64,000 nucleotides of DNA from a virus. Numbering within the stretch: position 1 is the stretch's first letter; each line of letters starts with the position of its first letter. Of the stretch, positions 9,231-59,845 are shown in pieces. The translations under genes were made by a program, and so were the position numbers. The notes beneath the pieces were generated by a model, which did no database searches, was not told where the DNA came from, and saw nothing but the letters and a program-made list of their open reading frames with translations. Where the stretch lies: IMG/VR virus record IMGVR_UViG_3300010392_000400, positions 1 to 64,000 of that record; one strand, given 5' to 3'.

Positions 9231-10907
9231 TTATCCTCTTGGGTTGACCAAGTTCCAGTATGTAACTCGTTTGTTCGGAACTCTGTCATCTTCGTCTTCG
9301 TCATCCTCGGGGTATTCCGAGTGCGAAACGGAGTAAATATCTCTAAGCCAAAGTATAGCTTGCGTAAAGGTGTCTGTCAAGTCGTCGTGCTCTGCATACG
9401 GGAACTGAAGTATCTCTTCGAGGAACTCATCCACAAAAGGTCTCCATTCGATCTCTTCTTCGGTGAGTTTCTTGGCAGGAAGCCAAATACGACCTGCTCT
9501 GCAGAACGGAGTAATGGCGTGGGCGCGAGATACTTTGTCTTTGTCTGGGACGTACTCCACGATTGGGAGGTCCCTGCGACGCATTTCTTGGATAAGGGAC
9601 ATCCCCGACCCTTTCTTCTCTACCAACAAGGTGTCTGGCTCATAGATATCGTTGACTTCCTGGACTTTTTGGCACAGCGTAGGAAAATCCCACCGCCCTT
9701 TTCCAGACTCTAGCAAAATAGCGTTGGATATCATGATTTCTCGTCCGTCCAGGTTTGTCTCTACGCTTTTGAACACCCCCCAAACAGAGTACGCTGAGTA
9801 ATCCGCGCTTTCCCTTGTGCTGAAGGCTGTGTCCACAGACATAATGATGTGATCTGCTAAAGGTGGTTCAGGGTCCAACCAAGGTTTAAACTCGGATTCC
9901 TTGAAAATAGACCCTTCTTCAGGAATAGGACTTTGCATGTACAAAGCTGCCCACTCCGCAGCAGTCAAGGTAGCGTCGTCCTTCTTCGCACTAAGGGCTT
10001 CGTCTGACCACATCTCAGGCCAGAAAGAGTGCCCCTCTGGGAGGTCCAAGAGCTTTGAAGACTCCTTGTCGAGGAACGCTGGGAACGATGTCACTTCCCA
10101 AGGTTGGCTGGATTCTACGTCTGCTTTGAGAAGGTACCCGCTAAGATCATCAATGTGCCACCGTGTGTTGACGATGACTTCAGAGGCTCCACTCAGGAGC
10201 CGTGTTCTCAGGCCCGAGCCGTACCACCTGTTAATCTTTGGCCGTTCTGTGTCACTCTTGGCGGTTTGTTCGTCAAGGGCATCATCACAAATACTTATGT
10301 GAGCCCTACGGCCTGCGATCTTACCACCCACCCCGGTACAGTAGTACATACCCCCTTTGTTTGTCCACCAACGTCCCGCTGCCTTAACGTCAGCACGGAT
10401 GTGGATATTGGGGAAAATCTGAGAGTACTCTGCTGTGCTCATAAGGTCTCTGATTTGCCGACCCATGTTATCTTGTGCAAAGTCTGTAGAGTGGCCTAGG
10501 TGGAGAATGTTCCACTTCGGGTGCCGCCCAAGAACCCAGGTTACAAACATATTGAGAATCTTGGATTTCATAGAACCTGGAGGCATGAAAAGTTGCCACC
10601 GGGCCCCAAACAGAGTTTCTTTGTTTTTGGACTCTTTACGTTTTAGGATGTTTGTACTTTGGGCGGTTCTTTGCTCAATCTTTTGGAGCTTTCGTGCCAT
10701 GTACTGAATGTGCTTTCCGTCGATAAACCCTTCAGGGAGTATCTCTGGAGCCATAAGCTCTACATAAGTGGGAAAGTGGACACGAGCCTTCTCAATAAGG
10801 ACAGATTGGATAAATATGGAAGCCTTCTGCTTCTCTTGGTACGTAAGGGTATCCCAGGAACTCTTAAGTTCCTCAACTACCTCTCGTTTCTTAAGCTCTA
10901 AGTCCAT
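9231..10907 (-). CDS. Terminase large subunit
   Basis: A 558-aa ATPase-nuclease for DNA packaging. The Walker A-like segment is MPPGSMKSK near residue 112. Walker B is ISICDDALDE near 207. The RNase H-like nuclease acidic residues lie in SVDTAF near 356, LVEKKGSG near 430 and EHDDLTD near 507. It is encoded 4 bp upstream of the portal gene and transcribed from a strong candidate promoter at 11087-11115. The Walker A has Met at a position usually occupied by Gly/Ala/Gly-Lys neighbours (PPGxxKS form), a form seen in some marine-phage terminases. Confidence 0.9.
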   Translation of the reverse strand: MDLELKKREVVEELKSSWDTLTYQEKQKASIFIQSVLIEKARVHFPTYVELMAPEILPEGFIDGKHIQYMARKLQKIEQRTAQSTNILKRKESKNKETLFGARWQLFMPPGSMKSKILNMFVTWVLGRHPKWNILHLGHSTDFAQDNMGRQIRDLMSTAEYSQIFPNIHIRADVKAAGRWWTNKGGMYYCTGVGGKIAGRRAHISICDDALDEQTAKSDTERPKINRWYGSGLRTRLLSGASEVIVNTRWHIDDLSGYLLKADVESSQPWEVTSFPAFLDKESSKLLDLPEGHSFWPEMWSDEALSAKKDDATLTAAEWAALYMQSPIPEEGSIFKESEFKPWLDPEPPLADHIIMSVDTAFSTRESADYSAYSVWGVFKSVETNLDGREIMISNAILLESGKGRWDFPTLCQKVQEVNDIYEPDTLLVEKKGSGMSLIQEMRRRDLPIVEYVPDKDKVSRAHAITPFCRAGRIWLPAKKLTEEEIEWRPFVDEFLEEILQFPYAEHDDLTDTFTQAILWLRDIYSVSHSEYPEDDEDEDDRVPNKRVTYWNLVNPRG

Positions 10908-43917: not shown

Positions 43918-44772
43918 ATGTCAGTAGTTAAACGAAGACGACCAAAGAAAAACAGACGTAAACAAGAATCCCACAGTGACCGTATGGCTGACTGGGAAAG
44001 GCGTAGTGAGCCTCGGCGTATCCAAGAAGCCCTTGTAGCAGGTAGTATCTACGGCTCTGTCACACCCTCTAACGGTGTACGCTTAGACGAAAACGTAGGT
44101 GATACTGAGTACAACAAAGGTGTCATAGATGAGATACGCAGGCTTAGAACCGAGCGTTCCGAGAGAGCAAGACGAAGAGGACGAAGTTACCAAGAAGGTG
44201 GCCCAGTCTCTAACGCAGATCGTTACCACGCCCGTAAAACAAGGGCTGGCGAGGCCCCTGATAGTCCAATGACAGACAGAGACCTTGTCATGCTCCTTCG
44301 TAGAGAGGCTAGTCGCAATCCAGAGAGTCCTCGTCCTAGTGTTCCTAGACACCAACGTAGAATGGCGCAGGAAGAGCGAAGCCCTATCCCCATCATACCC
44401 AATTCCTCAGGTACTGGAAGGTCTACTTCGTACCCCAACCCAAGACAACCTACTAGAACCCCCGTTGAGCCTCGCCCATCCCCCACCCCTAGGGGACACT
44501 TTAGACCGCGTGTCAGGGACCACGCAGACTCAGTATCACAACAGATGCGCCGTAACCTCAGGTCCTTTGACAGGGACCACTTGGCAGACAGCGCCCAGGA
44601 ATGGCTAAGTCGCCCAGACCTGAGTGACGCAGAACGCAGGTACTATGAAGACCTTCTGCGTAGAACTCGCCCCCTCCCTAAGACGTACCCCAACGGGAAC
44701 ACGGGTGGCGGAGGTGGCTATAAGAACGGTGGTCGCGTTAGAAAGCTCATGAGAGAGCGGAAAGGACACTAA
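43918..44772 (+). CDS. Arg-rich protein with DGG-type motifs
   Basis: A 284-aa, very basic, disordered-looking protein (KRRRPKKNRRKQ at the N-terminus; long Pro/Arg/Ser middle). It has two copies of the (Y)xxGGxV motif (SYQEGGPVSN near residue 91 and GYKNGGRVRK near the end) otherwise seen in minus-strand virion proteins. A segment SRPDLSDAERRYYEDLLRR is a probable helix. Function unknown; the motif links it to the virion. Confidence 0.6.
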   Translation: MSVVKRRRPKKNRRKQESHSDRMADWERRSEPRRIQEALVAGSIYGSVTPSNGVRLDENVGDTEYNKGVIDEIRRLRTERSERARRRGRSYQEGGPVSNADRYHARKTRAGEAPDSPMTDRDLVMLLRREASRNPESPRPSVPRHQRRMAQEERSPIPIIPNSSGTGRSTSYPNPRQPTRTPVEPRPSPTPRGHFRPRVRDHADSVSQQMRRNLRSFDRDHLADSAQEWLSRPDLSDAERRYYEDLLRRTRPLPKTYPNGNTGGGGGYKNGGRVRKLMRERKGH

Positions 44773-46820: not shown

Positions 46821-47810
46821 TTAGTCTCTACTATAGCCCTTTAGCCAGTCTCGCGCAGCTTCCTCTAGCATCCACTGTCTTAGTCTGTCATCTGATCGGA
46901 ACTCGTCGTAGTACTCCGGAGGTGGTACCCAGCTTTCTTCTTCGTAAAACCTAGGGTTCTCATCAGCCCAGCTCCTAGACTCTGAATCTCCTCTGCGGTA
47001 GAATTCTTCCACAAACTCGGGGTCTTCTCCCCTTAAGTCAGCTTGGTCTCCTGAGATGTTATAGATAGCAGCGTGACCAGGAGAGTCTATCTTAAACCAG
47101 TAAGGTATTTCATTGTAGTCGTAGCCCTCAGCAAGTTCTCCACTTCCAAAGTCATTTCCTCTGTACTCGTTAGGTGGGATGATCCTGTCACCAGTCCGCT
47201 CCCCCCGTATGTCCTCAGCTCTCCTAGTTAACCCCTCGTGTCCTCTGTGTCTATTCTCGTGGGCAAGGACATCGTTAAGGCTTCCAGAGCCCCAAGCTTC
47301 TCTGTCTAACCTGTGAGAATTCTCTGGGTCCCAGTACTCAGTGTTAACGCCGATACCGTGAGGAGGAACCCCCCACGGGTTAGTCCCAATGTCTCGGGCA
47401 TTATAGATACCGCGTAGGTCTCTACCCGGAGAAGTATCTTGGAATAGGGTAAAATCTTCCATAGGTTTCTCGTGGAGGAGGTACCCCATTAAACCTAAGG
47501 GGTCCCTTTCGTCTAGGCGATTCTGACTTTCGAAGGAGTCTGCCACCCGAGGGTCCATCATAGGACGGTCCCTACCGGGGTCATCTCTTAGACCTTGTTC
47601 CAAAGAACGGCGGTAGTCCATCTCCCTTAGGGCTTCTCCGTAAGGGTCACTTTCAAATTCACCTTGGACAATACGATAGGCTTCTTCTCTACCTACTTGG
47701 TCTCGTAGGGTTTGAAATCTACGCTGGACCTCTGGGTCACTCCAGTAGTCTAACTCCTCCTCAGAGAGAGTGCTTCCGTACATCCATTCTGTTTCACTAG
47801 GTGATGGCAT
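46821..47810 (-). CDS. Late protein with HExxH zinc-protease-like motif
   Basis: A 329-aa, very acidic and Arg-rich protein. ATG 47810 has GGAGGG 8 nt upstream and follows the previous gene closely. The motif VLAHENRHRGHEG (His-Glu-x-x-His) near residue 180 is a metallopeptidase signature, with further acidic and His residues downstream. The family is unfamiliar. In a virion-gene cluster it could process virion proteins or the cell wall, or the motif could be chance. Confidence 0.5.
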   Translation of the reverse strand: MPSPSETEWMYGSTLSEEELDYWSDPEVQRRFQTLRDQVGREEAYRIVQGEFESDPYGEALREMDYRRSLEQGLRDDPGRDRPMMDPRVADSFESQNRLDERDPLGLMGYLLHEKPMEDFTLFQDTSPGRDLRGIYNARDIGTNPWGVPPHGIGVNTEYWDPENSHRLDREAWGSGSLNDVLAHENRHRGHEGLTRRAEDIRGERTGDRIIPPNEYRGNDFGSGELAEGYDYNEIPYWFKIDSPGHAAIYNISGDQADLRGEDPEFVEEFYRRGDSESRSWADENPRFYEEESWVPPPEYYDEFRSDDRLRQWMLEEAARDWLKGYSRD

Positions 47811-47814
47811 ACGA

Positions 47815-48126
47815 TTACCCTCCGCTACCCCCAAAGAGCTTGAACCAGGCTGTGAGAGCACTCCAGATAGCGAGGATACCCCCGCCTAACCAGAAGATTC
47901 CCTTCAAGGCTCCTTTTCCCCAGGTCATTTCCTTTGTTAGCTCCTTAGCCAACTTTTGGTTTTCTTCGATCATCTTTTCGTGTTTATCAAGACGGGCTTC
48001 AAAGTGTTTTGCTTGCATACGCGACTCTGTACGGTGCTCCCTAATCTCTATGAGGAGTTTTATCTCCATAGGAAGGTCTTCAACTGTCCCGAGTAAAAGG
48101 TCTTTATCGTCGTTGTTATCTATCAT
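47815..48126 (-). CDS. Coiled-coil membrane protein, possible holin-like or spanin-related
   Basis: A 103-aa protein: long coiled coil (IKLLIEIREHRTESRMQAKH; LDKHEKMIEENQKLAKEL) then one membrane span near residues 77-95 (GIFWLGGGILAIWSALTAWF), like XhlA-type hemolysin/holin accessory proteins. Overlaps the giant gene by 4 nt. Lysis role is a context inference. Confidence 0.55.
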   Translation of the reverse strand: MIDNNDDKDLLLGTVEDLPMEIKLLIEIREHRTESRMQAKHFEARLDKHEKMIEENQKLAKELTKEMTWGKGALKGIFWLGGGILAIWSALTAWFKLFGGSGG

Positions 48127-51100
48127 TCGTCTTCCAATTGAAATTCATTTTCACCCCAACGCGACCCTTCAGGGGCATCAAATTCGGGTTGTCTCGTGCC
48201 AGGACGTTCACCTTCTGTAAAGGCACCTGGATCAACTCTTTGTGTAATTTCCCTCGCCACTTGGCGTCGGATGCTTGTCATCAGTCTCGGAGGTGGCACA
48301 GTGTTATGGGCTGCCATAGACACGTAGAAGTCAAATATTCTGTCGTTGAACGCGTCAGTAAGCTCCGCAGTCCTTTCCACATTCCCTGCTTCTTGGCTGT
48401 AGTGGATATTTACCCCGATTTCCGTTAGGTCACGATAGAGAGCCCTTCGTGCAGGTACGATGTACTGTTCTTCCAGTGAGCGCCACGTATACGAATTCAG
48501 GTTTCTCTCGGACACAGACAGAGGCTGGATGCCAAGGGCACGTAGAGCAACCTCGTCAAACCGGATTTCCTCCGGTCCTACATATTGTACACCACGAGTG
48601 GTTTCTACGCCAGAAGAGGCCCAATCCAAGGAACGGAAGATGTTCTGTGCTGCTACGGGGGCTAGCCTGTCAAAGCGCCCTGCCCCTGTGTCCGCCAAGA
48701 GACGTCCCGGAATACCTGTGATCCGTTGCTGAGCGTAAGAGGAGTCTGGGTTGGCCATAAAGGAAACCGCGTTCTCAAAGGGAAGCGGGATACCAATACG
48801 ACGACTCATGTCCATGTTCATAGATGCCAGAGACCCGTTAGTCAGGATACGCGCTACCTCAGGCTCTAGTCCAAGCTCTTGTGTAAGGTACCAATTCAGT
48901 CTTTCGTCAGCGTTGACAATTCTTCGTTTGTCTTTAGGCACCAAGTATTGCATGATGAACTCAAAGAGCTCTTTGTAAGTCTCAGCCCCAGGGAATCCGT
49001 TGATCCCGGCGAACACGAAGAACATAGTCATTGCCAAAGCAAACGTCTGCTTACCTTGAACCCCAGTGTGGAAAGCGGAGTTACCCAGGAATTCCAGGAC
49101 AGTAAGAGGATAGGTCATGAATGGGAATATGATAGACCCAGCCCACCCTCTTTGGATAGCGCCACGGCCTGTCTTGTCGTAGACCCCGTGTGTGTCTTGT
49201 ACCATTTGTACTGCGATGGGACCTAGAACCCTAAGGTCTGATGCATCGGTGATCTTTCTGTTCTCTAAGATAGTCCCAATGAGAGCGTTATCTTTGTTGG
49301 ACGTCAGGTAGCTGTTGATCGCATCTGTGTTCACAGTACCGTCGTTACTCACCATGAGATCAAGGTACGACAGGAACGCAGACAGACGAGTGTACCGTTC
49401 CGCCATGTGAAGGGGGAACCCGGCAAACATAAGGGTCTTGTCCTTGAACCTACCAAGGGCACTCTGGACCTTTCCTTGGTACTGGTCGTGGACACTTTGG
49501 AGCCGCCCACGGGTAAAGGACTCTTCCATAATGGACTGCTGAAGGTGTACCATGTTGTTCTGGGTAACACCCATAATCGTTTCTACCTTCTCCTTAGGGA
49601 AGTGCTTACGAAGGGTTTTTCTCAGGCTTGCTTCAGAATACCTGAGTTCAATCGTACGTCCTTTAATATCAGTGTTGTTTCTTCCAGCTTCTACTTCCGC
49701 TGTATGTATAATCTCTGCTGCTGCTGCACTCATCTTAGCCATAGTCTTAGCGTTACCTAGTACGCTTGTGCGGAACGAAGAGAGACTAGGGTACACAACG
49801 GTTGGGATTGTGAATAAGTTAAGGAACGCTGTAGACAACTGGAAACCTAGAGCGTAGAAGAAGTTCAACTGACGCATCAGGCTTAGGTCATTCGCAGGTT
49901 CTGTCATGTACTCCCATTGTTTCTTAAGGAACGCACGTTGTTCCTCTGGGAAGTGTTCGTTAATAGTATCCGTAGATAAATCTCTTGTAGTGTTATTCAG
50001 AATATCTCCGTACCTTTTGAACACGTCGGCGTACCTGTCATTAGCAAGAACCCACGGTGCGTTGGACAAGTACTCACCTAAGACTGATACGTAATCTTGG
50101 CTATACCCACCGATATTCGTAGTCATACGAACGTACGACATAAGAGACCCTTTGCGGCCCTCTGCAGACATTCTCTGGGACCTACGTGATCTAAGGTCCT
50201 TGATAACTTTTTGCATGTCTTTGGAGGACAAATCAGTAGCCCGTAGTACGTGCCCCATATCTTCGATGGTAGCTTCGAACCCAAGTTCTGTTAGCTCGCC
50301 TCGTTTGATACTGGACCTATCTACAGGAGTAGTCTCTTCGTACTGTACGATGTTCAAGTCAGGGTAGTGAGCTTGGTAAAGCTGTACCATATCCTTCTGC
50401 ACTCGGGCGCGGGCAGCAGCAAGGCCTTCAACTGAAGGTTTGTTCTTCTTGTTCACAGGTATCTCTACGACCATCTTAAGGTACTTGTCCCCACGAGGTC
50501 CTGCGTCAGGGTTCAGGACACGTATTCCTTTGGAGTTCTTGAAGTAGAAAGCTTGGAACATAGTGTTCGGAGAACTTCTAAGGTGAGGGAAGTAAGGACG
50601 TGACGGGTCCAGGAGAACTTCGGAGAATTCCAACGTGTTCGCGTAGACTTCTGCTCGGTCAACATTTTCTTGCAGCTTTGCCTTGGCAGGTGATTCCACT
50701 GTCATAGCACTTAGTTCTTCCGTAGCGTTCTCAATCCACTGGTAGACTTCCTTAGAGGTTGTTTCTACGTCGCCTAGGGTTCTACCATCTACGGAGATTC
50801 CTAGATCACTAATAGACTCCTGAGTCATCACCTTGTACATCAAAGGCACTTTCTTAAGGGTCTTAGTCAGGTTATCCACCGCCGCTGTTTCTTCAGGTGT
50901 TAGGGCAAAGGTACGTAGCTCTCCTGAGCTTGGGTCCCAAGCCTTGTAAAGGAGTCTGTTGTCATCCGTACGGTTCTCCAAGGATTGTCCCGTAGCGTTC
51001 ATGATGTCTAGTCTGTGGAGTGCTCTCTCCGTTTGTTTCACTTTCTCGGGGTTGTTAAAAGGCACCGCGTCAGCGAAGTCCGTTTGGAACTCCAACATGA

Positions 51101-54100
51101 TTTTTTCAATGAGAGTGTTCCTAGAACGTACAGCGTCAACTAAGGTGGCTAGGGCAGGAAAGTCCTTAGCTTGTCTTTGAAGTGTTCTCCAGGACTTCTG
51201 AGATTTGAACATCGCGTCAAAGTTATTGGAACCTTGGAGAGCGACGGTGTTAGGATTAGCGGACATCTGATCTGACGCTATAAGGTCTACGACACCTCTG
51301 CCTTCTTTGTTCATACCCTCTGTAGTATTTCTACGTACTTCACGTCTGATGCTGCTTTGGTAGTACTTATGCGAGGCCTCTTCAATACCTCTACGCACTT
51401 CGTAACTGTCCCAAGTGTTCCCAAGGAGATTCTTTAGGTCACCGTTAGCGGCTCTGCTCATGGATGTCTGGGCTCTCATGAAATTAGGATAGAAAGCCTC
51501 ACGTACTGCGTGAATGATAACTTTCTTAGTCATGTACTGGGAGAAGGCTTCTGATGTAATGACTTCTGAGAATTTGTTCTTGCCAAGGTCACGGACAAGG
51601 GAGCTTTGGACGTTGGCGTCCAGGTCCATCAAAGAGTTCTTGATAGTCTTTGGGTTGATGTCGTACATCTTAGCGAGCTCTTGAGGCGACCAGAAGTCCA
51701 TCTCACGAAGAACGTGAAACAAAGCAGTACCATCGTTTACACTAAGGTTGTCCATGTTGTTCATGGCGTACGTAAGGGTAGTGACACGAGCTCTAGCATC
51801 TAGCGAAGTTTCAAACGCACGGATGTCTCTTTCCAAGTTATCTCGAAACTTCTTTAGACCTGGTCCTGCGAACGCTTGGTTTACAAGGGCGCTTGTGTTC
51901 CCCCTATAGTTGGAGAAGGACGGAGCGATCTTAGCTTGCTGGAAGTTTGTCCAAGTGATGTCACTGAGACGGACGTCTTGGGCATCTACGCTATACAGGT
52001 TTGTATCAGGTGTAGCAAAGGCTTCTCCTATGCTGTCCAAGAGTTTCCCAGCTTTGATTTCATCGAGGACACTGTCTAGTTCTTTGTACGCCTTGTCCAT
52101 TTCCTTGAGCTTAGCTCTAGGGACACGTCGCATTATTTCGCTAGGTACTCTCCAAGCAGATGAATTAAGGAGTGTTCTAGGGTCTACTCCAGATTCCTCT
52201 GCTTTCTTCACAAAATTGTCGTAGGCGCTTTGGGCTTTCCCTTTGATGTTGCCTAGGGAACTGGGGTGTATAGTAGGAGCGCCTTCTGGTTGAGCTTTTA
52301 GGGCATCTTCAATCTGAGCCAACACAGGGTTCTCCCGAGAGAGTATCTCACGGCTTTGGTCCTTACGAATCTGGTCCATGACAGTAGAGTACCTTTGTTG
52401 GTCTTGGTCCATCATAGCGTTAGCTTGTTTAGACAGACCACCTACGGCACTCTCAATATTCGTAGTGTCCATGTCTGTACGGTCTGGAGTCTTCTGTGTG
52501 TACCTTAGGTAGTTTGCTAATTCGTTGGAGACCCTCGGTGTCATCAAAGATAGTTGCTCTACCGAGAAGGGTCTAAAGGACACAGTCTGATCTGGATTGC
52601 CAGGGTCTCTCTGTGTGGCTTCGAACTCGCTAAGGAATTTTCTGTCTTGGTTGACTTGTTCGTTCCCTGTGTTGAAGACCTCACTAAGGGACATACCTCG
52701 GAAGTTATTCGCCCCGTATCCTGTGAGTTTCATGGTTCCCGCCGCCATAGCAATCTCTGCCAAGTTAATAGCTTCTTGGTCAGGAAGGGCAGCAATAGAT
52801 TCTTCTGTCATAGCCCCTACTCCAACTTCGGGAGGAGTTACAGCAGTAAGAATTTCTGTTACCATATTCCCTGTCGTTCTAAGGTAAGCTCTGGCATCCT
52901 GAGGTGTCTGGAATACGTGACCTCTGATACGATTACGCTCTCTCGTAAAAGCTTCGTTCTTAGCGTTGTCAAGGACACTTGTTACTTCTCTGGTTGACAG
53001 GGGAAGGAACGTAGGTGTGTCGTCATAAAGGTCGTCTACAGAGACAACGTCGTTCTCTACGGCTTCTGTGGCTCTACTTTGGATGGCTCTAGAGGTAAGA
53101 GCAGGGTTAACATAGTGGTTTACCCCGGAGATACCACTACCTAGAGGACCTTCCATAAGGGCTCCACCAAGGGCGCTCCACGCGTACTCCTCAAGGGCGT
53201 CAGGACCTAGGACTTCAACTCCGGGAGCCGCAAGGCGTTCAAAGCCAGCTTGGAGTGTTTCCTCTGTAGCCCCGGTGCCAGCGCCTATGAAGAACTCCCT
53301 AGTCACTGTGGACAGAAGGCCTCTACGAGCTTCTTGGCTCATAGTTGTTTGCGCAGCTTCCCCAGTCATACGACTAGCAAGGTTTCTGAGGACAGGGTTA
53401 AGAAGACGAATGGGTACGATGGCTTGACTAAGACCTTCTACCGCCGCAGCGGGTAGAGCGAGGCCCATAGTTTGTACTGCGTTGTAATCTGGGTCTTCTC
53501 CGTCTTGGGTTGTTTCCTCGTAGTTGCGGTTCATCATCTCAGACAGAATGAAGGGATACGAAGCTACTGTTGCTGTGGCTCCACCAGCGACCAAAGCTGC
53601 TGCGCCTTCCGCAGGAGCGGCGGCTCCAACAGCAGCCCCAGCAGCTAAGATAGGAAAGGACCGTCCAAAGGTCTCCCTAAACCACAGAGTGAAGTCACCC
53701 CAGTTCTGTAGAAAGGACTCGTCGTCAAAGACATCCCGTAGGTCTGTCCACTCCCCACGCTCTTCCCTGCGTCTGTTGATTTCGTCGATAAGGTGAATAC
53801 GATCTTCGTGCGTAGCATCATCTTGACCACCTAGAGGCCCCCAGTTTGTATCAAAGGCATCACCTAGTTGTACACCGAGACGAGGAATATCATCTTGTAT
53901 CCCTGAGATAAGACCACCAAAGAATCCAGGCTTCTTATCCCCTTCTTCCCAAGGGTGCCAAGGGTTAGGTCCTTGTGCACCTAGGATAGCTGCTCTGTGA
54001 CGTTCCGTGCGTGTTTCCGCAGGACCTTCGTGCTCTGTGATTACATCGGGGAGAAAATCCCCTGCTAGGACTGGTTCTTCTGTTCCTTGGGCTTGCGACG

Positions 54101-54179
54101 CAGGTAGGTACTGGTTGGTCTCAGGATCATAGACCAAACCCATGGTTTCGGCATAAATTGCGTCGTACTCTTTGGGCAT
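48123..54179 (-). CDS. Giant 2018-aa virion / DNA-ejection protein
   Basis: Residues 1-110 are acidic and low-complexity with a KKPGFFGGLISGIQ helix. An Ala-rich membrane-like patch (FPILAAGAAVGAAAPAEGAA) lies near residue 175. A long helical body follows. The C-terminal 500 residues include IIFPFMTYPLTVLEFLGNS and a further hydrophobic stretch (FALAMTMFFVFAGING), resembling the end of giant ejection proteins of marine podoviruses (PLxRFG-type) and T7 gp16-like internal proteins. These cross the cell envelope and carry DNA in. No RNA polymerase motifs are visible. Confidence 0.75.
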   Translation of the reverse strand: MPKEYDAIYAETMGLVYDPETNQYLPASQAQGTEEPVLAGDFLPDVITEHEGPAETRTERHRAAILGAQGPNPWHPWEEGDKKPGFFGGLISGIQDDIPRLGVQLGDAFDTNWGPLGGQDDATHEDRIHLIDEINRRREERGEWTDLRDVFDDESFLQNWGDFTLWFRETFGRSFPILAAGAAVGAAAPAEGAAALVAGGATATVASYPFILSEMMNRNYEETTQDGEDPDYNAVQTMGLALPAAAVEGLSQAIVPIRLLNPVLRNLASRMTGEAAQTTMSQEARRGLLSTVTREFFIGAGTGATEETLQAGFERLAAPGVEVLGPDALEEYAWSALGGALMEGPLGSGISGVNHYVNPALTSRAIQSRATEAVENDVVSVDDLYDDTPTFLPLSTREVTSVLDNAKNEAFTRERNRIRGHVFQTPQDARAYLRTTGNMVTEILTAVTPPEVGVGAMTEESIAALPDQEAINLAEIAMAAGTMKLTGYGANNFRGMSLSEVFNTGNEQVNQDRKFLSEFEATQRDPGNPDQTVSFRPFSVEQLSLMTPRVSNELANYLRYTQKTPDRTDMDTTNIESAVGGLSKQANAMMDQDQQRYSTVMDQIRKDQSREILSRENPVLAQIEDALKAQPEGAPTIHPSSLGNIKGKAQSAYDNFVKKAEESGVDPRTLLNSSAWRVPSEIMRRVPRAKLKEMDKAYKELDSVLDEIKAGKLLDSIGEAFATPDTNLYSVDAQDVRLSDITWTNFQQAKIAPSFSNYRGNTSALVNQAFAGPGLKKFRDNLERDIRAFETSLDARARVTTLTYAMNNMDNLSVNDGTALFHVLREMDFWSPQELAKMYDINPKTIKNSLMDLDANVQSSLVRDLGKNKFSEVITSEAFSQYMTKKVIIHAVREAFYPNFMRAQTSMSRAANGDLKNLLGNTWDSYEVRRGIEEASHKYYQSSIRREVRRNTTEGMNKEGRGVVDLIASDQMSANPNTVALQGSNNFDAMFKSQKSWRTLQRQAKDFPALATLVDAVRSRNTLIEKIMLEFQTDFADAVPFNNPEKVKQTERALHRLDIMNATGQSLENRTDDNRLLYKAWDPSSGELRTFALTPEETAAVDNLTKTLKKVPLMYKVMTQESISDLGISVDGRTLGDVETTSKEVYQWIENATEELSAMTVESPAKAKLQENVDRAEVYANTLEFSEVLLDPSRPYFPHLRSSPNTMFQAFYFKNSKGIRVLNPDAGPRGDKYLKMVVEIPVNKKNKPSVEGLAAARARVQKDMVQLYQAHYPDLNIVQYEETTPVDRSSIKRGELTELGFEATIEDMGHVLRATDLSSKDMQKVIKDLRSRRSQRMSAEGRKGSLMSYVRMTTNIGGYSQDYVSVLGEYLSNAPWVLANDRYADVFKRYGDILNNTTRDLSTDTINEHFPEEQRAFLKKQWEYMTEPANDLSLMRQLNFFYALGFQLSTAFLNLFTIPTVVYPSLSSFRTSVLGNAKTMAKMSAAAAEIIHTAEVEAGRNNTDIKGRTIELRYSEASLRKTLRKHFPKEKVETIMGVTQNNMVHLQQSIMEESFTRGRLQSVHDQYQGKVQSALGRFKDKTLMFAGFPLHMAERYTRLSAFLSYLDLMVSNDGTVNTDAINSYLTSNKDNALIGTILENRKITDASDLRVLGPIAVQMVQDTHGVYDKTGRGAIQRGWAGSIIFPFMTYPLTVLEFLGNSAFHTGVQGKQTFALAMTMFFVFAGINGFPGAETYKELFEFIMQYLVPKDKRRIVNADERLNWYLTQELGLEPEVARILTNGSLASMNMDMSRRIGIPLPFENAVSFMANPDSSYAQQRITGIPGRLLADTGAGRFDRLAPVAAQNIFRSLDWASSGVETTRGVQYVGPEEIRFDEVALRALGIQPLSVSERNLNSYTWRSLEEQYIVPARRALYRDLTEIGVNIHYSQEAGNVERTAELTDAFNDRIFDFYVSMAAHNTVPPPRLMTSIRRQVAREITQRVDPGAFTEGERPGTRQPEFDAPEGSRWGENEFQLEDE

Positions 54180-54181
54180 TA

Positions 54182-57100
54182 CTATTGTAGTCCATTTCTA
54201 TTTTCGAGTTCCCTCTGGATGTTCGCGGCAAGCTGCTCAGGAGGGATTCCTTCAGAGTACACCTCTCTAGGTATACCTGCTGCATCTAGGTACTGCAAGA
54301 GGGTTCCTATACGGGCGTTCTCTGGAATACTCGGGTCATTTAAGAGAGCGGAGACAAAGTCGTGGGCCCTCGTTGGGCTGCTTAGAACTTCGTTAAACAT
54401 AGAGTCTCTCTGAGAACGTCTCTGAGCTACCTCTGCCATAGCCTCTTCTCTTTGGGCTCTTTCGTGTTGAGCCCTTGCTATCTCCAGAGCTTCCCTTCGC
54501 ATATCGTTGTCTTGCTTTCGTCGCTGAGCTTGCATAATAGACTGCTGTTCTTGAGCTTGCTGTTCCTGTGCCCTTGCTTGTTCTTGTGAAATATGGTTTA
54601 TGGCTGGCCCTGCACCTTCTGTGGCCATAAGGAGTCCACCTTGAACTAGGTCCCAACGAATTCTGTCTAACCAAGAAGGTTCTTTTTTAGAGTTTCCTTG
54701 GGGCTTCCTTAGCATTTCTTCTGCCATTTCCTCTAACGGGGACCCTCCTGCTTCTACGGGTTCTGGGTCCTCGTACGAAGGCCACTGGGGTCTTTGCACG
54801 GGCCTCGCCATAGGACCCTGGTAAGGTCCTGGCTCTTGGCCCCCTGTTAAGTACGATGGGAGATTCCTAGGAGGTTCTCCGTATGTTGCTAAAGGATTTT
54901 CTGAAGCTCTCCCCATGTCCATTGGGACATTAGTAGGAACTCCGTACATACCTGTGTTAACCCCAAGCATGTTATTAATTCTGTCCATAGGGTTCAACTG
55001 GTCTAGGACTCTTAGACCACCATCGGCAAAGCCTTGGACCTCTCCCCCGTCCTTGAAGCTCGAAGACCCACCTTGGCCTTCTTGTTTCCAAAAGTCGAAG
55101 GGACTTCCACCGCCTTGTCCAGCAAGGAAGTCTTCCCCGAAGTTTACGTTCATGCCTTGCCATCCGAAGTTCTGACCCATGCCTCCTTGTTGCTGTTGTT
55201 GCCCACCTTGTCCACGTTGTGGTCCAACAGGTTCCATTGGGTGGCTAATCTGAGGGACATCTGCTGATACAATAGGGGCCGCAGGTTTAAATGTACCACT
55301 TTGTAAAAGGCTCATAAGACCACCTTGGGGAATACCCATAGGGGGTGCCATGCCTTCCATAGCACTCATGGGATTCTGTTGGAGGCCCATTGGAGAACCT
55401 CCAGTGGGGTTAAAGCCCGGTGCGTTCCAACCTGCTTCAGCAATTCCGTAGTTCACGTTCCCAGCATCCCTTATTTGGGGTTGGAAGGACCCTTCTCTCA
55501 TTTGTCTTTGGTAGACACCGGGTGGTGTTATTTGTTGCCCACTGTGTCCGTACCCTGTGTACCCTGTGCTTCCTGCACGGAGGACTTGGCCACCATCAGC
55601 AAATCTTAGTCTAGCTTCCCTATTTTCCTGAGTGTTATAGTAACCTTCGTAGTCAGGGTCTGTTCCAAAGTATCGTCCAAGGTCTTCTTCATTCCTTTGG
55701 CGAAGAAGGGTGTTAAGAGGTGTTGGGTCTTCTTGGTTATTTACGATGCTTATAATTGAATCAGCTAAGTACTCATCTTCCTCGGTATAAGGAAAATTTT
55801 CTTTGTAATACTCTGCTACTCTTTCTGAAATCCTTAGTGTATCTTCTTCACTAACTCCTCTTTCTCTTAAAACTCTTGCAAACTCCCCTGCTGCAGGGCT
55901 TACCCCTCTGACAATATCATAGTTGTACATATCACCTAAGGTATTTCGATAAGGCGTTTCATGACTTCCGTAGTAGTCATCCCTATTGCTTTCTGGTGAA
56001 ATCCCTTCTCTTTGGAGGATGCGAGACACAGCATAATTTAGGCTTTCTAGGTTTCGATAAAGGGAGTTTTCCTCTATTTGTTCTCGTTCCGAAAAGAAGA
56101 ATGGGTTGGAGGTTGAAGGGTCTCCGCCATCAGGGCCTCTATCATGTGGGAGTAGGCCTAGGGATTCAATGAGGGCTTGGGTGTCTCTAGCTCCTCTATC
56201 GTGTAGGTCATACCTAAGGAGCTTACCACCTTCGCCATCGTCAGGGTACCTTCCTGTACCAATAAGCCGCTCCAATTGAACCTTTCTAAGGTCTGTAGGA
56301 TTTCTAAAGTAATCGTTCATGAGGGGATACGCAAAATCCATTAAACCCCCTTGTTCCTGGACAGTATCGAAAGCCTCTTCCCAGGTTTCTTCATTATTAA
56401 AGGCCTCTGGGATTAGACCCCCTGAAAAGGTATAAGCCGGGTCAACTCTTTGGGGTACTCCACCTTTGTATTCGTCTGATACTAGACGACCAGAAACCCT
56501 TCCTCCATCTTGGTACGCTGGGTACCCTGTGCTTCCTGCACGGAGGACTTGGCCACCATCAGCAAACCTAGGTTGACCTTCAGAGTTTCTACGTGTATCT
56601 GAGATACGTCTTCCTAAGTGAACCGAGTTCTCTCCTGCGTATAAGTCTTCTATAATTTGGTCTGTGATCCCTCGGATTTGGGACTCACTTACGTCTTGGG
56701 CTCTTAGGGCGTCTGCGAAAGCACTAGAGTAAACGTCTCTGTCCCTTAATACATCTTCTGCAAAGATTTGACCAAGGTTGTCTCCGCCTTGGAGTCTAGA
56801 GTTGTCTAAGACAAGTCCTGCAGCAAAGGACAAGTAGTCCCTATCGTCTGTCCTTTGAAAATCTCTTAGAAGACCCCTGTTTTCCTCTGCACGTACCATG
56901 GCATCAAAAGGAGGGATTAGGGTAACAAAGTTATCTGCCATATCATCCCAGTCTTCCACTTCCCTTTGGGCGTATCTTCTTCTGCGGTCTCTCCCACGCT
57001 CACCTGCGTCCATGTATTCTTGGAGAATACGGTCTCTACCTGGATCAGACTCAGGGTATTCTTGCTGACCCCTTCGGTAGTTCACAGGGCCACCGTCTTG

Positions 57101-58951
57101 GTACGCCGGGTAATTATGCCCGAAGCGGTCACTTAGATTTCCTGTGTTACGGCCTTGGCTGGCCACTGAAGGGCGTTGAGATTGCCTCCGGCTTTGCCTC
57201 CACTCCTGCCCACCAAGTCCTGGTAGTCTTCGTCCTGGTCTGTCTCTCCTACTAGAGTCTCCACCTAGGGGTGTCCCAGCAAAGGCTGGTAGCGTAGGTG
57301 CTGAGGCATTATACCCATTTGGTCCGTAGACTTCTGGGTAGTGCTCCTCAGCGTACGGTGACATACCGTAGAGTTGGTTAATGAAAGGATTGTAAGCCAC
57401 GGTTCCTGAAGGAGTTCCGTGTGACATAGACCCTTGTGGCATTCCGAATGGTGCTTCGCTACTCTGGCCAAGAAGACCTGCTAAAGGACTTCCTTCAGGT
57501 GTACCTGGAGTTCCGTTGCCCATTTGGTTCATCATGGCCATCATTTCTAAGGTACTTCTGTAGTCTGACCCAAGTCGATCATAGGCTCTACTGTCGGTAG
57601 GATTTGGAGAACCCCAAGAGTCTAAAGCAGCTTGGTCTCTTTCGTTGAACAGGATGCCGCCTTGTTCGTCTAGGTCGTAATGAATTTGGTCTCTTCCGTG
57701 GGGGTTTCTCTTGTTGTTGAAGGATACGTACCCACCATCTTGGTACTCGTCCTCGGGTCTACGTTGTGCGTAGGTAACACCGGGGGGAGGTGCTCCGTAC
57801 ATTCCTGGACGGTAGCCTTCTATAAGTTTCCAAAAAGGGGTGTCGTACCCTACGTCTGGGAAGCTCACGATGCGTTCCAACCACGAAGGGTTCTCGTGTC
57901 CACGTTCTTCACGGACGATCTCTCCACCGTCTGCGTAGCCTCCAATGAGACCTCCGTCTTTGACCATAGGAGCAAACTGACCCGGTGGCATAGCAGCGTT
58001 AGTTGCCCCGCCACTCAACATGTTTCCAAACCCTAGCGCCGCCATGGGGTTTCCACCCATGAGGCCAGCAACACCCATAGCACCACCTAGGACTTGCTCA
58101 AAGAGACCCGGTCCTGGTTGTGTAGTTGTCGTTGTACCTTGGGATGTTCCAGAGGTATGTTGAGGGGAGGACTGCCAAGGGTACCCGTAGGCAATGTTTG
58201 AGTAGAACTGAGCTGTATCAAAAGGATACTGAACACCTCTTCCGAACTCCCCTACTCCAAAGTCCAAAGCGCCTTGAGCTTGTCCTTGGTACTGTTGCCC
58301 AATGTTTAAGAGGTTCTGAGCGTTGGCTACCTGTTGAGAGCGTAGGGCCTCACTAGTCCCCATACCAGTTCCAATGGCAGACGCGTTAGCACCTTGACCC
58401 CTGTACCAGTTGTCGAGGGCACTGTTGTAGGCGTCTTGTTGACCCCCGTAAGAAAGCTCCATGGCATTTCGGAGGTGGCCACGTTGAAGTTCACCTTCTT
58501 GCACCCCGTGGCGACTTCCTCCAAACGACCCCGCTAGCGCTTGGTTGCCATAGAGTTGTTGACGCATTACGTCGTATTGCTCTTGGAGATTTTCCATACC
58601 GATGTCCGTAACATTCTGTGTGTACGGGTTCATCCGACCTTGGATTTCTTGAGAAGTAGGGGGACGACCTGCTTGGTCTAGGAGAGCTAGGGTGTTCCCT
58701 GTCACCGCTTCGTTAATGGGGTACGCAGCGTCAGAGACCCCTCGGATACGTTGGTGTCCCTCAAGAGAGTCTGGTGCAAACGAAGCAACAGGCACCCCTG
58801 GGTAGGCTTGGAAGGACTGATCAGCAGCACTCCCTGCCATGCCCAAAGCTCTTGTCCAAGCGTTCTGTGCTTCCTGTGGAACTTGGTACTCGCTCCACTG
58901 GTCAAAGCTCTGGTTAGTGTTATGTGTACTTGTTTGTGAGCCTTTGCCCAT
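54182..58951 (-). CDS. Giant 1589-aa virion protein with repeated DGG motifs
   Basis: The N-terminal 350 residues (YTQNVTDIGMENLQEQYDVM and GNQALAGSFGGSRHGVQEGE) match a family of phage ejection or internal proteins common in marine podoviruses. A disordered, Gly/Pro/Gln-rich body follows, with (Y/F)xDGGxV motifs near residues 337, 405, 620, 802, 816, 1120, 1301 and 1308. Two related helical modules lie at about 720-770 and 1030-1070 and resemble a module in the 58961 product. Between about 817 and 1120 is an A/T-rich segment flanked by an exact 45-bp DNA repeat. The last 150 residues are a Gln/Arg-rich coiled coil. Confidence 0.7.
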   Translation of the reverse strand: MGKGSQTSTHNTNQSFDQWSEYQVPQEAQNAWTRALGMAGSAADQSFQAYPGVPVASFAPDSLEGHQRIRGVSDAAYPINEAVTGNTLALLDQAGRPPTSQEIQGRMNPYTQNVTDIGMENLQEQYDVMRQQLYGNQALAGSFGGSRHGVQEGELQRGHLRNAMELSYGGQQDAYNSALDNWYRGQGANASAIGTGMGTSEALRSQQVANAQNLLNIGQQYQGQAQGALDFGVGEFGRGVQYPFDTAQFYSNIAYGYPWQSSPQHTSGTSQGTTTTTQPGPGLFEQVLGGAMGVAGLMGGNPMAALGFGNMLSGGATNAAMPPGQFAPMVKDGGLIGGYADGGEIVREERGHENPSWLERIVSFPDVGYDTPFWKLIEGYRPGMYGAPPPGVTYAQRRPEDEYQDGGYVSFNNKRNPHGRDQIHYDLDEQGGILFNERDQAALDSWGSPNPTDSRAYDRLGSDYRSTLEMMAMMNQMGNGTPGTPEGSPLAGLLGQSSEAPFGMPQGSMSHGTPSGTVAYNPFINQLYGMSPYAEEHYPEVYGPNGYNASAPTLPAFAGTPLGGDSSRRDRPGRRLPGLGGQEWRQSRRQSQRPSVASQGRNTGNLSDRFGHNYPAYQDGGPVNYRRGQQEYPESDPGRDRILQEYMDAGERGRDRRRRYAQREVEDWDDMADNFVTLIPPFDAMVRAEENRGLLRDFQRTDDRDYLSFAAGLVLDNSRLQGGDNLGQIFAEDVLRDRDVYSSAFADALRAQDVSESQIRGITDQIIEDLYAGENSVHLGRRISDTRRNSEGQPRFADGGQVLRAGSTGYPAYQDGGRVSGRLVSDEYKGGVPQRVDPAYTFSGGLIPEAFNNEETWEEAFDTVQEQGGLMDFAYPLMNDYFRNPTDLRKVQLERLIGTGRYPDDGEGGKLLRYDLHDRGARDTQALIESLGLLPHDRGPDGGDPSTSNPFFFSEREQIEENSLYRNLESLNYAVSRILQREGISPESNRDDYYGSHETPYRNTLGDMYNYDIVRGVSPAAGEFARVLRERGVSEEDTLRISERVAEYYKENFPYTEEDEYLADSIISIVNNQEDPTPLNTLLRQRNEEDLGRYFGTDPDYEGYYNTQENREARLRFADGGQVLRAGSTGYTGYGHSGQQITPPGVYQRQMREGSFQPQIRDAGNVNYGIAEAGWNAPGFNPTGGSPMGLQQNPMSAMEGMAPPMGIPQGGLMSLLQSGTFKPAAPIVSADVPQISHPMEPVGPQRGQGGQQQQQGGMGQNFGWQGMNVNFGEDFLAGQGGGSPFDFWKQEGQGGSSSFKDGGEVQGFADGGLRVLDQLNPMDRINNMLGVNTGMYGVPTNVPMDMGRASENPLATYGEPPRNLPSYLTGGQEPGPYQGPMARPVQRPQWPSYEDPEPVEAGGSPLEEMAEEMLRKPQGNSKKEPSWLDRIRWDLVQGGLLMATEGAGPAINHISQEQARAQEQQAQEQQSIMQAQRRKQDNDMRREALEIARAQHERAQREEAMAEVAQRRSQRDSMFNEVLSSPTRAHDFVSALLNDPSIPENARIGTLLQYLDAAGIPREVYSEGIPPEQLAANIQRELENRNGLQ
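55559..55603. repeat. Exact 45-bp direct repeat, copy 1
   Basis: Identical to 56522-56566. It encodes (on the minus strand) FADGGQVLRAGSTGY. The spacing of 963 bp is a multiple of three, so recombination between copies would remove or add 321 residues in frame. Confidence 0.9.
56522..56566. repeat. Exact 45-bp direct repeat, copy 2
   Basis: Second copy; the following residues are PAYQDGGRV, whereas after copy 1 they are TGYGHSGQQ. Confidence 0.9.
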
Positions 58952-58960
58952 GTTTTTTCC

Positions 58961-59845
58961 TTATTTACCTGTACCTACACGGCCATACGTAGTCTCAGCA
59001 GCAGCATTAATCGTCTGGTCAATTTCTAAGTCAGATAGCCCTTGGCTTCTAAGGTATGCGGCGAATCTACCGTTAAAGGCATTTCCTTCCTGTACGTCTT
59101 GGGCAAGCATCCTTGCTAGTCTGTCGGTGTCATTCCCATAAGAATCTCCATAGGTATTAAGGATATCTTTGTATATTCCAACATCGTACCCACTACGCCC
59201 CTGTGGAGAAACCCCCCCGCCGTCTTGGTACTTCTTGGCTAACGCGGATAACAGCCTGTTTTTCACGGGACCTCCATTCTTGTATTGCCCTGGCGTATAA
59301 TCGTCAAATTCAGAAACCCCGTAGTCTGGGGTACCTAGTTTTGCTGCTGCCCAAGAAGCGGCATCAAGTCGGGCGTTGAAATTATGAGATTCACCTGCCC
59401 TATAGTCTCTTGTTTGATGTCCAATGGCGTAAGGGAACTCTCCTTGCTCCCAATCACTTGCTGTACCCCTGTGGTAATCTCTAACGAATGCCTGAGCAAT
59501 AGCCTCTATTTCCCCTTCGTCTGGAGGGGAGCGCACTCCTTCGTAGTCGTCAACATTTCTTTCGTATACTTCTCTTATCACAGGTAGAATTTCTCGGAAC
59601 AGGCTATGTTCTTTTTGTCCCCAGTCATCTTCAACGTAGCCATTCCTATGAGAATACCTTTCCCCGTACCTTGGTAAAGACCCACCTTCAAAAAGGTTCA
59701 TTTCCTCTAGGGCAAAACGTGCCTCGTCGCTTCCAACGAAACGGCCCTTATCGTCGAAGACATCAGGGTATCCTGAGATAGCCGCCCTACTTCGTGGACC
59801 TAAGTCTCCGATAGTTCCTCCGTCTTGGTATTTTCTTCGTTGCAT
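58961..59845 (-). CDS. Virion-associated protein with DGG motifs and helical module
   Basis: A 294-aa protein with RRKYQDGGTIGD at the start, GQYKNGGPVKN and KKYQDGGGVSPQG near residues 187 and 207. A C-terminal module LARMLAQDVQEGNAFNGRFA...LRSQGLSDLEIDQTINAAAE has the same pattern as segments of the 1589-aa protein. It precedes that gene in the operon by 10 bp. Likely a partner or paralogous fragment of it. Confidence 0.6.
   Translation of the reverse strand: MQRRKYQDGGTIGDLGPRSRAAISGYPDVFDDKGRFVGSDEARFALEEMNLFEGGSLPRYGERYSHRNGYVEDDWGQKEHSLFREILPVIREVYERNVDDYEGVRSPPDEGEIEAIAQAFVRDYHRGTASDWEQGEFPYAIGHQTRDYRAGESHNFNARLDAASWAAAKLGTPDYGVSEFDDYTPGQYKNGGPVKNRLLSALAKKYQDGGGVSPQGRSGYDVGIYKDILNTYGDSYGNDTDRLARMLAQDVQEGNAFNGRFAAYLRSQGLSDLEIDQTINAAAETTYGRVGTGK

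Follow-up and report, generated by a model that had tools for sequence, protein, structure and literature searches.

A seven-residue Gly-Gly peptide at the joints of exchangeable segments in an ejection-type phage protein and other predicted virion-carried proteins

Introduction

Phages are already known to have mosaic ejection proteins and polyvalent proteins, and to shuffle fragments among their proteins. Domain exchange among the ejection (E) proteins has been recognised (PMC8954989), with no short joint motif in the passages searched of that review, and in SU10 five ejection proteins leave the head (PMC9509320). Polyvalent proteins are long multidomain chains encoded among virion genes and thought to be injected; the paper on them (PMC5512222) mentions neither DGG nor a linker. 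Recent segment exchange between unlike proteins, especially virion proteins, has also been described (PMC10684548), where we found no common joint peptide. In the literature searched, whose scope most subscription papers lie outside, we found no joint peptide shared across unrelated phage proteins. The statement of an earlier note that DGG motifs are known as common in marine phage virion proteins was likewise unsupported in that literature.

The window analysed here is a stretch of 64,000 nucleotides (positions 1 to 64,000 of virus record IMGVR_UViG_3300010392_000400, which has 69,628 bases). It encodes a 1589-aa protein that resembles the ejection proteins of P22/SU10-like short-tailed phages in its N-terminal match to phrog_4287 and in the stabilization/nozzle-type gene nearby. 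Most of its 115 homologs are stand-alone proteins of about 300 aa without the motif, whereas the window protein adds about 1300 residues of motif-jointed cassettes. As in polyvalent proteins, several distinct mosaic segments lie in one chain in a head-gene context; in contrast to them, the named effector domains (MPTase, ART, PBECR and others) are absent from the window array proteins by Pfam. An ART-PolyVal domain occurs in two other multi-motif open reading frames (ORFs) found with the bait described below.

Results

The head genes of the window comprise an SU10-type portal, an SU10 adaptor, a GroES-like gene, a Mu-gpT/Phage_capsid_4 capsid and the terminase genes. At the other end, P0008, a small protein and the 294-, 1589-, 2018- and 346-aa proteins are encoded on one strand. 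Homologs of P0008 in relatives are annotated as stabilization or constituent protein, with about 25-33% identity to the named-phage homologs, and the CRP-902 homolog of the small protein carries the annotation GNAT acetyltransferase. The 294-, 346- and 2018-aa proteins had no homolog among annotated phages, and the queried proteins had no match in PDB by sequence. The coordinates of the motif-bearing genes are collected in Table 1.

Table 1. Features of the motif-bearing genes in the window (positions in the window; residue numbers refer to the protein concerned).
Feature	Coordinates	Strand	Remarks
1589-aa protein: ejection domain followed by a C-terminal array of motif-jointed segments	54182..58951	-	
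DNA-ejection-protein domain, aa 1-270 of the 1589-aa protein	58142..58951	-	phrog_4287 match
Motif YADGGEI, aa 339	57917..57937	-	
Motif YQDGGYV, aa 403	57725..57745	-	separate gene starts here in both relatives (MNNRRTYKGYQDGG)
Backbone segment aa 410-616	57104..57724	-	common to both relatives, z about 51
Motif YQDGGPV, aa 617	57083..57103	-	
Cassette aa 624-795	56567..57082	-	unmatched in both relatives; GC3 0.40
Motif FADGGQV, aa 796	56546..56566	-	
Motif YQDGGRV, aa 813	56495..56515	-	
Direct repeat copy 1 over motif	56513..56581	-	69 nt, 88% identical, spacing 963 nt = 321 codons
Cassette aa 820-1116	55604..56494	-	unmatched in both relatives; GC3 0.35
Direct repeat copy 2	55550..55618	-	over motif FADGGQV (aa 1117; 55583-55603)
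Backbone segment aa 1124-1298	55058..55582	-	common to window and G001
Double motif FKDGGEVQGFADGG, aa 1299 and 1308	55010..55057	-	same place in both relatives
294-aa protein	58961..59845	-	motif 59810-59830, cassette aa 13-187, YKNGGPV 59264-59284, YQDGGGV 59210-59230, cassette aa 213-294
284-aa basic protein	43918..44772	+	YQEGGPV 44188-44208; near-C-terminal YKNGGRV 44719-44739

The 'DNA ejection protein' family phrog_4287 matched window positions 58052-58948 in a six-frame family search (E 1.4e-6). The match was also obtained in the relative G001 (E 9.3e-6) and in other related phages, and in none of 14 cellular control genomes. The full 1589-aa protein matched nothing in Pfam and fell below the cut-off in a direct PHROGs scan at 1e-3. 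Searched whole against the viral contigs, with records very near the window possibly excluded, it returned no relative. An iterated HMM search of viral contigs and named phages with its roughly 270 N-terminal residues gave the family of 115 homologous ORFs, whose stand-alone members match phrog_4287 with E values of 7e-9 and 2e-10; some fused members, such as those of L216 and L258, carry the motif. In both the window and G001 the domain has P0008 or a homolog of it in its vicinity, and the DSL-LC04 homolog of the domain lies near a 'DNA transfer protein'. The motif array therefore forms a C-terminal extension of an ejection-type protein. Pfam recognised no domain in the cassettes or array proteins of the window, and the direct PHROGs scan matched the latter to no profile, tape measure profiles included.

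The number of motif copies was compared with that expected by chance. In the 1589-aa protein, [YF]xDGG occurs eight times (aa 339, 403, 617, 796, 813, 1117, 1299 and 1308) against a shuffle mean of 0.11, and the strict form [YF]xDGGxV six times, where 2000 residue shuffles gave 0.01 on average. The roughly eight (Y/F)xDGGxV copies of the earlier note are therefore real in the shorter form, and six of them in full. The three copies claimed for the 294-aa protein, YQDGGTI (aa 6), YKNGGPV (188) and YQDGGGV (206), hold in the broad form (3 vs. 0.007 expected). For the 284-aa product at 43918, the claim of two copies stands for the looser variants YQEGGPV (aa 91) and YKNGGRV (268; broad form 2 vs. 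0.003 expected) and fails for the strict form, which is absent. This product has no family match in Pfam or PHROGs. Its gene lies on the strand opposite the array genes, which counts against our preferred explanation. The 2018-aa protein has no copy. The general form of the motif can be written [Y/F/M]-x-[polar]-G-G-x-[V/I].

The MADGG at the N-terminus of the portal protein, proposed as a related form, was ruled out. The relatives read LPDGGFEVEL, LPDGAFEVEL or LPDGGMDVEI there, an acidic portal-specific element, LPDG(G/A)xxVE, with V at another distance and the aromatic residue not conserved.

The window was compared with two relatives, G001 (IMGVR_UViG_3300006467_000329) and L018 (IMGVR_UViG_3300027790_000053). 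The shared backbone of the 1589-aa protein consists of residues 1-310, 410-616 and 1124-1298, the last being matched in G001 by segment comparison. What lies between these stretches is, in the two relatives, dissimilar, relocated or carried by a gene of its own, and backbone and joints are kept. The two cassettes without a counterpart have the GC3 values given in Table 1, against 0.42-0.48 for the backbone. In addition, the 294-aa protein of the window has its first cassette upstream of the ejection domain; this cassette is related (z 11.9) to one within the L018 ejection-type protein, where it lies downstream of that domain. G001 and L018 share a 47-bp island coding NYREGGxVMxRNYQD, and the DNA flanking it on either side is unlike; they also share a 318-bp block that is 97.5% identical in DNA amid 72-84% sequence. 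The motif thus marks the borders of otherwise unlike segments, as the earlier note had stated, and these differ among relatives while the motifs stay. Not every breakpoint is a motif: the 318-bp block has both its start and its end some 20 to 27 codons away from the closest one. The genes that G001 and L018 have in the position of the 2018-aa protein of the ejection region (48123-54179, minus strand) are not similar to it.

In both relatives the counterpart of the 1589-aa protein is split into two same-frame genes, the second starting with the sequence given in Table 1 for the window motif at aa 403. Such fusion and splitting at a motif would also be expected if the array were a polyprotein cut at GG into its cassettes, at head maturation or after injection, and zincin-like peptidases have been suggested to process polyvalent proteins (PMC5512222). 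The window encodes an HExxH-like stretch, HENRHRGHE, in the 346-aa product (46821-47861, minus strand), a possible metallopeptidase candidate as judged from this stretch, and a Peptidase_C93-like (BTLCP) gene is present in both close relatives (G001:C1:23538-23726; L427). Against cleavage, the 346-aa product matches nothing in Pfam, PHROGs, PDB (by sequence) or annotated phages, and the sole HExxH in G001 lies in a 142-aa ORF that shares DNA with the array gene but is read in a different frame. The window record is without Peptidase_C93, and no single peptidase is common to the window, G001 and L018; a universal zincin processing enzyme is unsupported. We consider cleavage quite unlikely. The processing tag of the earlier note thus found no support: an HExxH-like gene lies near the window array, but none that is plausible was seen in G001, which has another candidate peptidase.

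Gain and loss of cassettes could be followed at base level in a second phage group. A bait scan of viral contigs with YQDGGxV, its Tyr and Gln codons fixed, led to a second family of arrays, which lie between the terminase and a phrog_156 portal (the window portal is phrog_1216) and start with an unrelated module. This module, DTVPxMLTPGEFVI, weakly matches the tape measure-type C-terminal modules phrog_35029 and phrog_37649; unlike a tape measure protein, the array is encoded by a short gene of its own that lies immediately upstream of the portal. By eye, a small gene beside the terminase resembles an M15 peptidase. Contig L139 carries a 297-bp (99-codon) cassette that L184 lacks, the two being 99.6% identical over the 476 bp before it and 98.4% over the 680 bp after it. 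Both ends of the cassette lie inside a 17-bp repeat coding GYQDGG. In four more cassette indels (L152/L302, L298/L296, L300/L302 and L305/L302), neither end is more than about 1 aa from a motif, and motifs make up about 5% of protein length in this set; the count left out pairs too divergent to align unambiguously. The earlier note's reading of the motif as 'cassette joints that let segments be shuffled' therefore holds at base resolution in one genome pair and by segment comparison in the window's group.

Direct repeats of 69, 117 and 51 nt cover motifs in the three phages of the window's group, at spacings of 963, 375 and 354 nt, respectively, which correspond to 321, 125 and 118 whole codons. 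L018 has further repeats in proline/glutamine-rich stretches. In L013 (9243-11051), copies of a 117-nt direct repeat, 95% identical (10224-10340 and 10599-10715), flank a single cassette, likely a recent duplication. The 51-117 nt repeats and the identical 17 bp at the L139/L184 junction raise the question of whether the motif is a by-product of a site-specific recombination signal in the DNA. Codon choice for Gly, Asp, Tyr and Val varies across 30 motif copies, however, which leaves no DNA sequence conserved, and each repeat is confined to its own genome, as ordinary homologous recombination would give. We therefore reject a signal at DNA level in view of this codon diversity, and we give this origin of the motif almost no credence. 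The retention of residues while codons vary indicates selection on the peptide, and the peptide itself must do something.

We also determined how the motif is distributed beyond the window. Among the matches listed, a second motif was present in 17 of 55 non-redundant viral YQDGGxV ORFs and in 0 of 28 cellular ones (Fisher p = 4e-4). Per 1000 aa, again among the matches listed, the viral motif ORFs had 0.94 extra motifs and the remaining ORFs of their contigs had 0.10. Because the single-motif bait ORFs include tail fibres and others in which the peptide may be chance, our argument rests on the multi-motif ORFs, whose neighbours mostly match terminase, portal, capsid and endolysin families. 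In seven named phages, with late and early gene regions assigned by hand, 18 motifs fell in 61 kaa of late genes and one in 24 kaa of early genes, a difference that is just significant (p = 0.036). A 1271-aa protein of L194 (2723-6538, plus strand) has six copies and no family match, and adjoins a large HExxH-containing ORF. In Caulobacter phage GB2A (L008 22060-23814, minus strand), the last residues of a tape-measure-annotated protein are exactly YMDGGRV. Pelagibacter phage HTVC027P and phage DSL-LC04 are further cultured relatives whose ejection-region genes carry the motif.

With the bait form removed, the positions that stood out, counted from the first G, were Y/M/F at -3, A/Q at -2 and V/I at +3; two separate sets each showed a roughly 4- to 5-fold enrichment of both Y/F/M at -3 and V/I at +3. 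This bears on the main rival to docking, a purely passive hinge that binds nothing and gathers breakpoints at domain boundaries. Gly-Gly is a common hinge and linkers are natural places of domain exchange. AlphaFold gave a mean pLDDT of 45 for the 294-aa protein (2 sequences) and 35 for the L302-type array (13 sequences), very low at the motif regions, and the motif was not placeable in either. A hinge, however, needs no aromatic residue or Met exactly three positions before and no V/I exactly three after, and no second copy is present in the cellular proteins that have the peptide (0 of 28 among the matches listed). We therefore judge a hinge alone unlikely.

Discussion

Our results show that the motif forms the joints of segments that are gained or lost in frame and exchanged among relatives, and that it is enriched in viral proteins. 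On balance, we favour the explanation that it is a cassette joint in virion-carried proteins and probably also a docking tag. In this reading the motif is the regular joint in an array of cassettes borne by proteins that are predicted to travel inside the virion. The array extends a DNA ejection protein in the 1589-aa product and has further cassettes on the 294-aa product. Because the motif bounds the segments, one can replace, follow or leave another with the frame intact, and recombination between motif-coding repeats may add, remove or swap them.

Docking is the most likely role of the peptide. As a short docking element, it would keep each cassette tethered within the head or the apparatus for ejection; the cassettes would then exit with the DNA and may act in the host. 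The fixed aromatic residue and V/I would contact a shared virion surface, giving each cassette its own anchor. That the array sits packaged in the head and is co-injected is suggested by its family and by work on ejection proteins (PMC9509320, PMC8954989). The sorting or docking tag raised in the earlier note fits the conserved register, the clustering in viral proteins and the head-gene context. More speculatively, the peptide could be a general loading tag, sufficient alone, with which unrelated tailed phages load and inject exchangeable passenger domains, although we think this rather unlikely.

If our explanation is right, this seven-residue signature would offer a way to find phage-delivered cassettes among otherwise unannotatable proteins. 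It would also account for how such proteins are rebuilt without loss of frame, and it would make head loading, together with its signal, directly testable.
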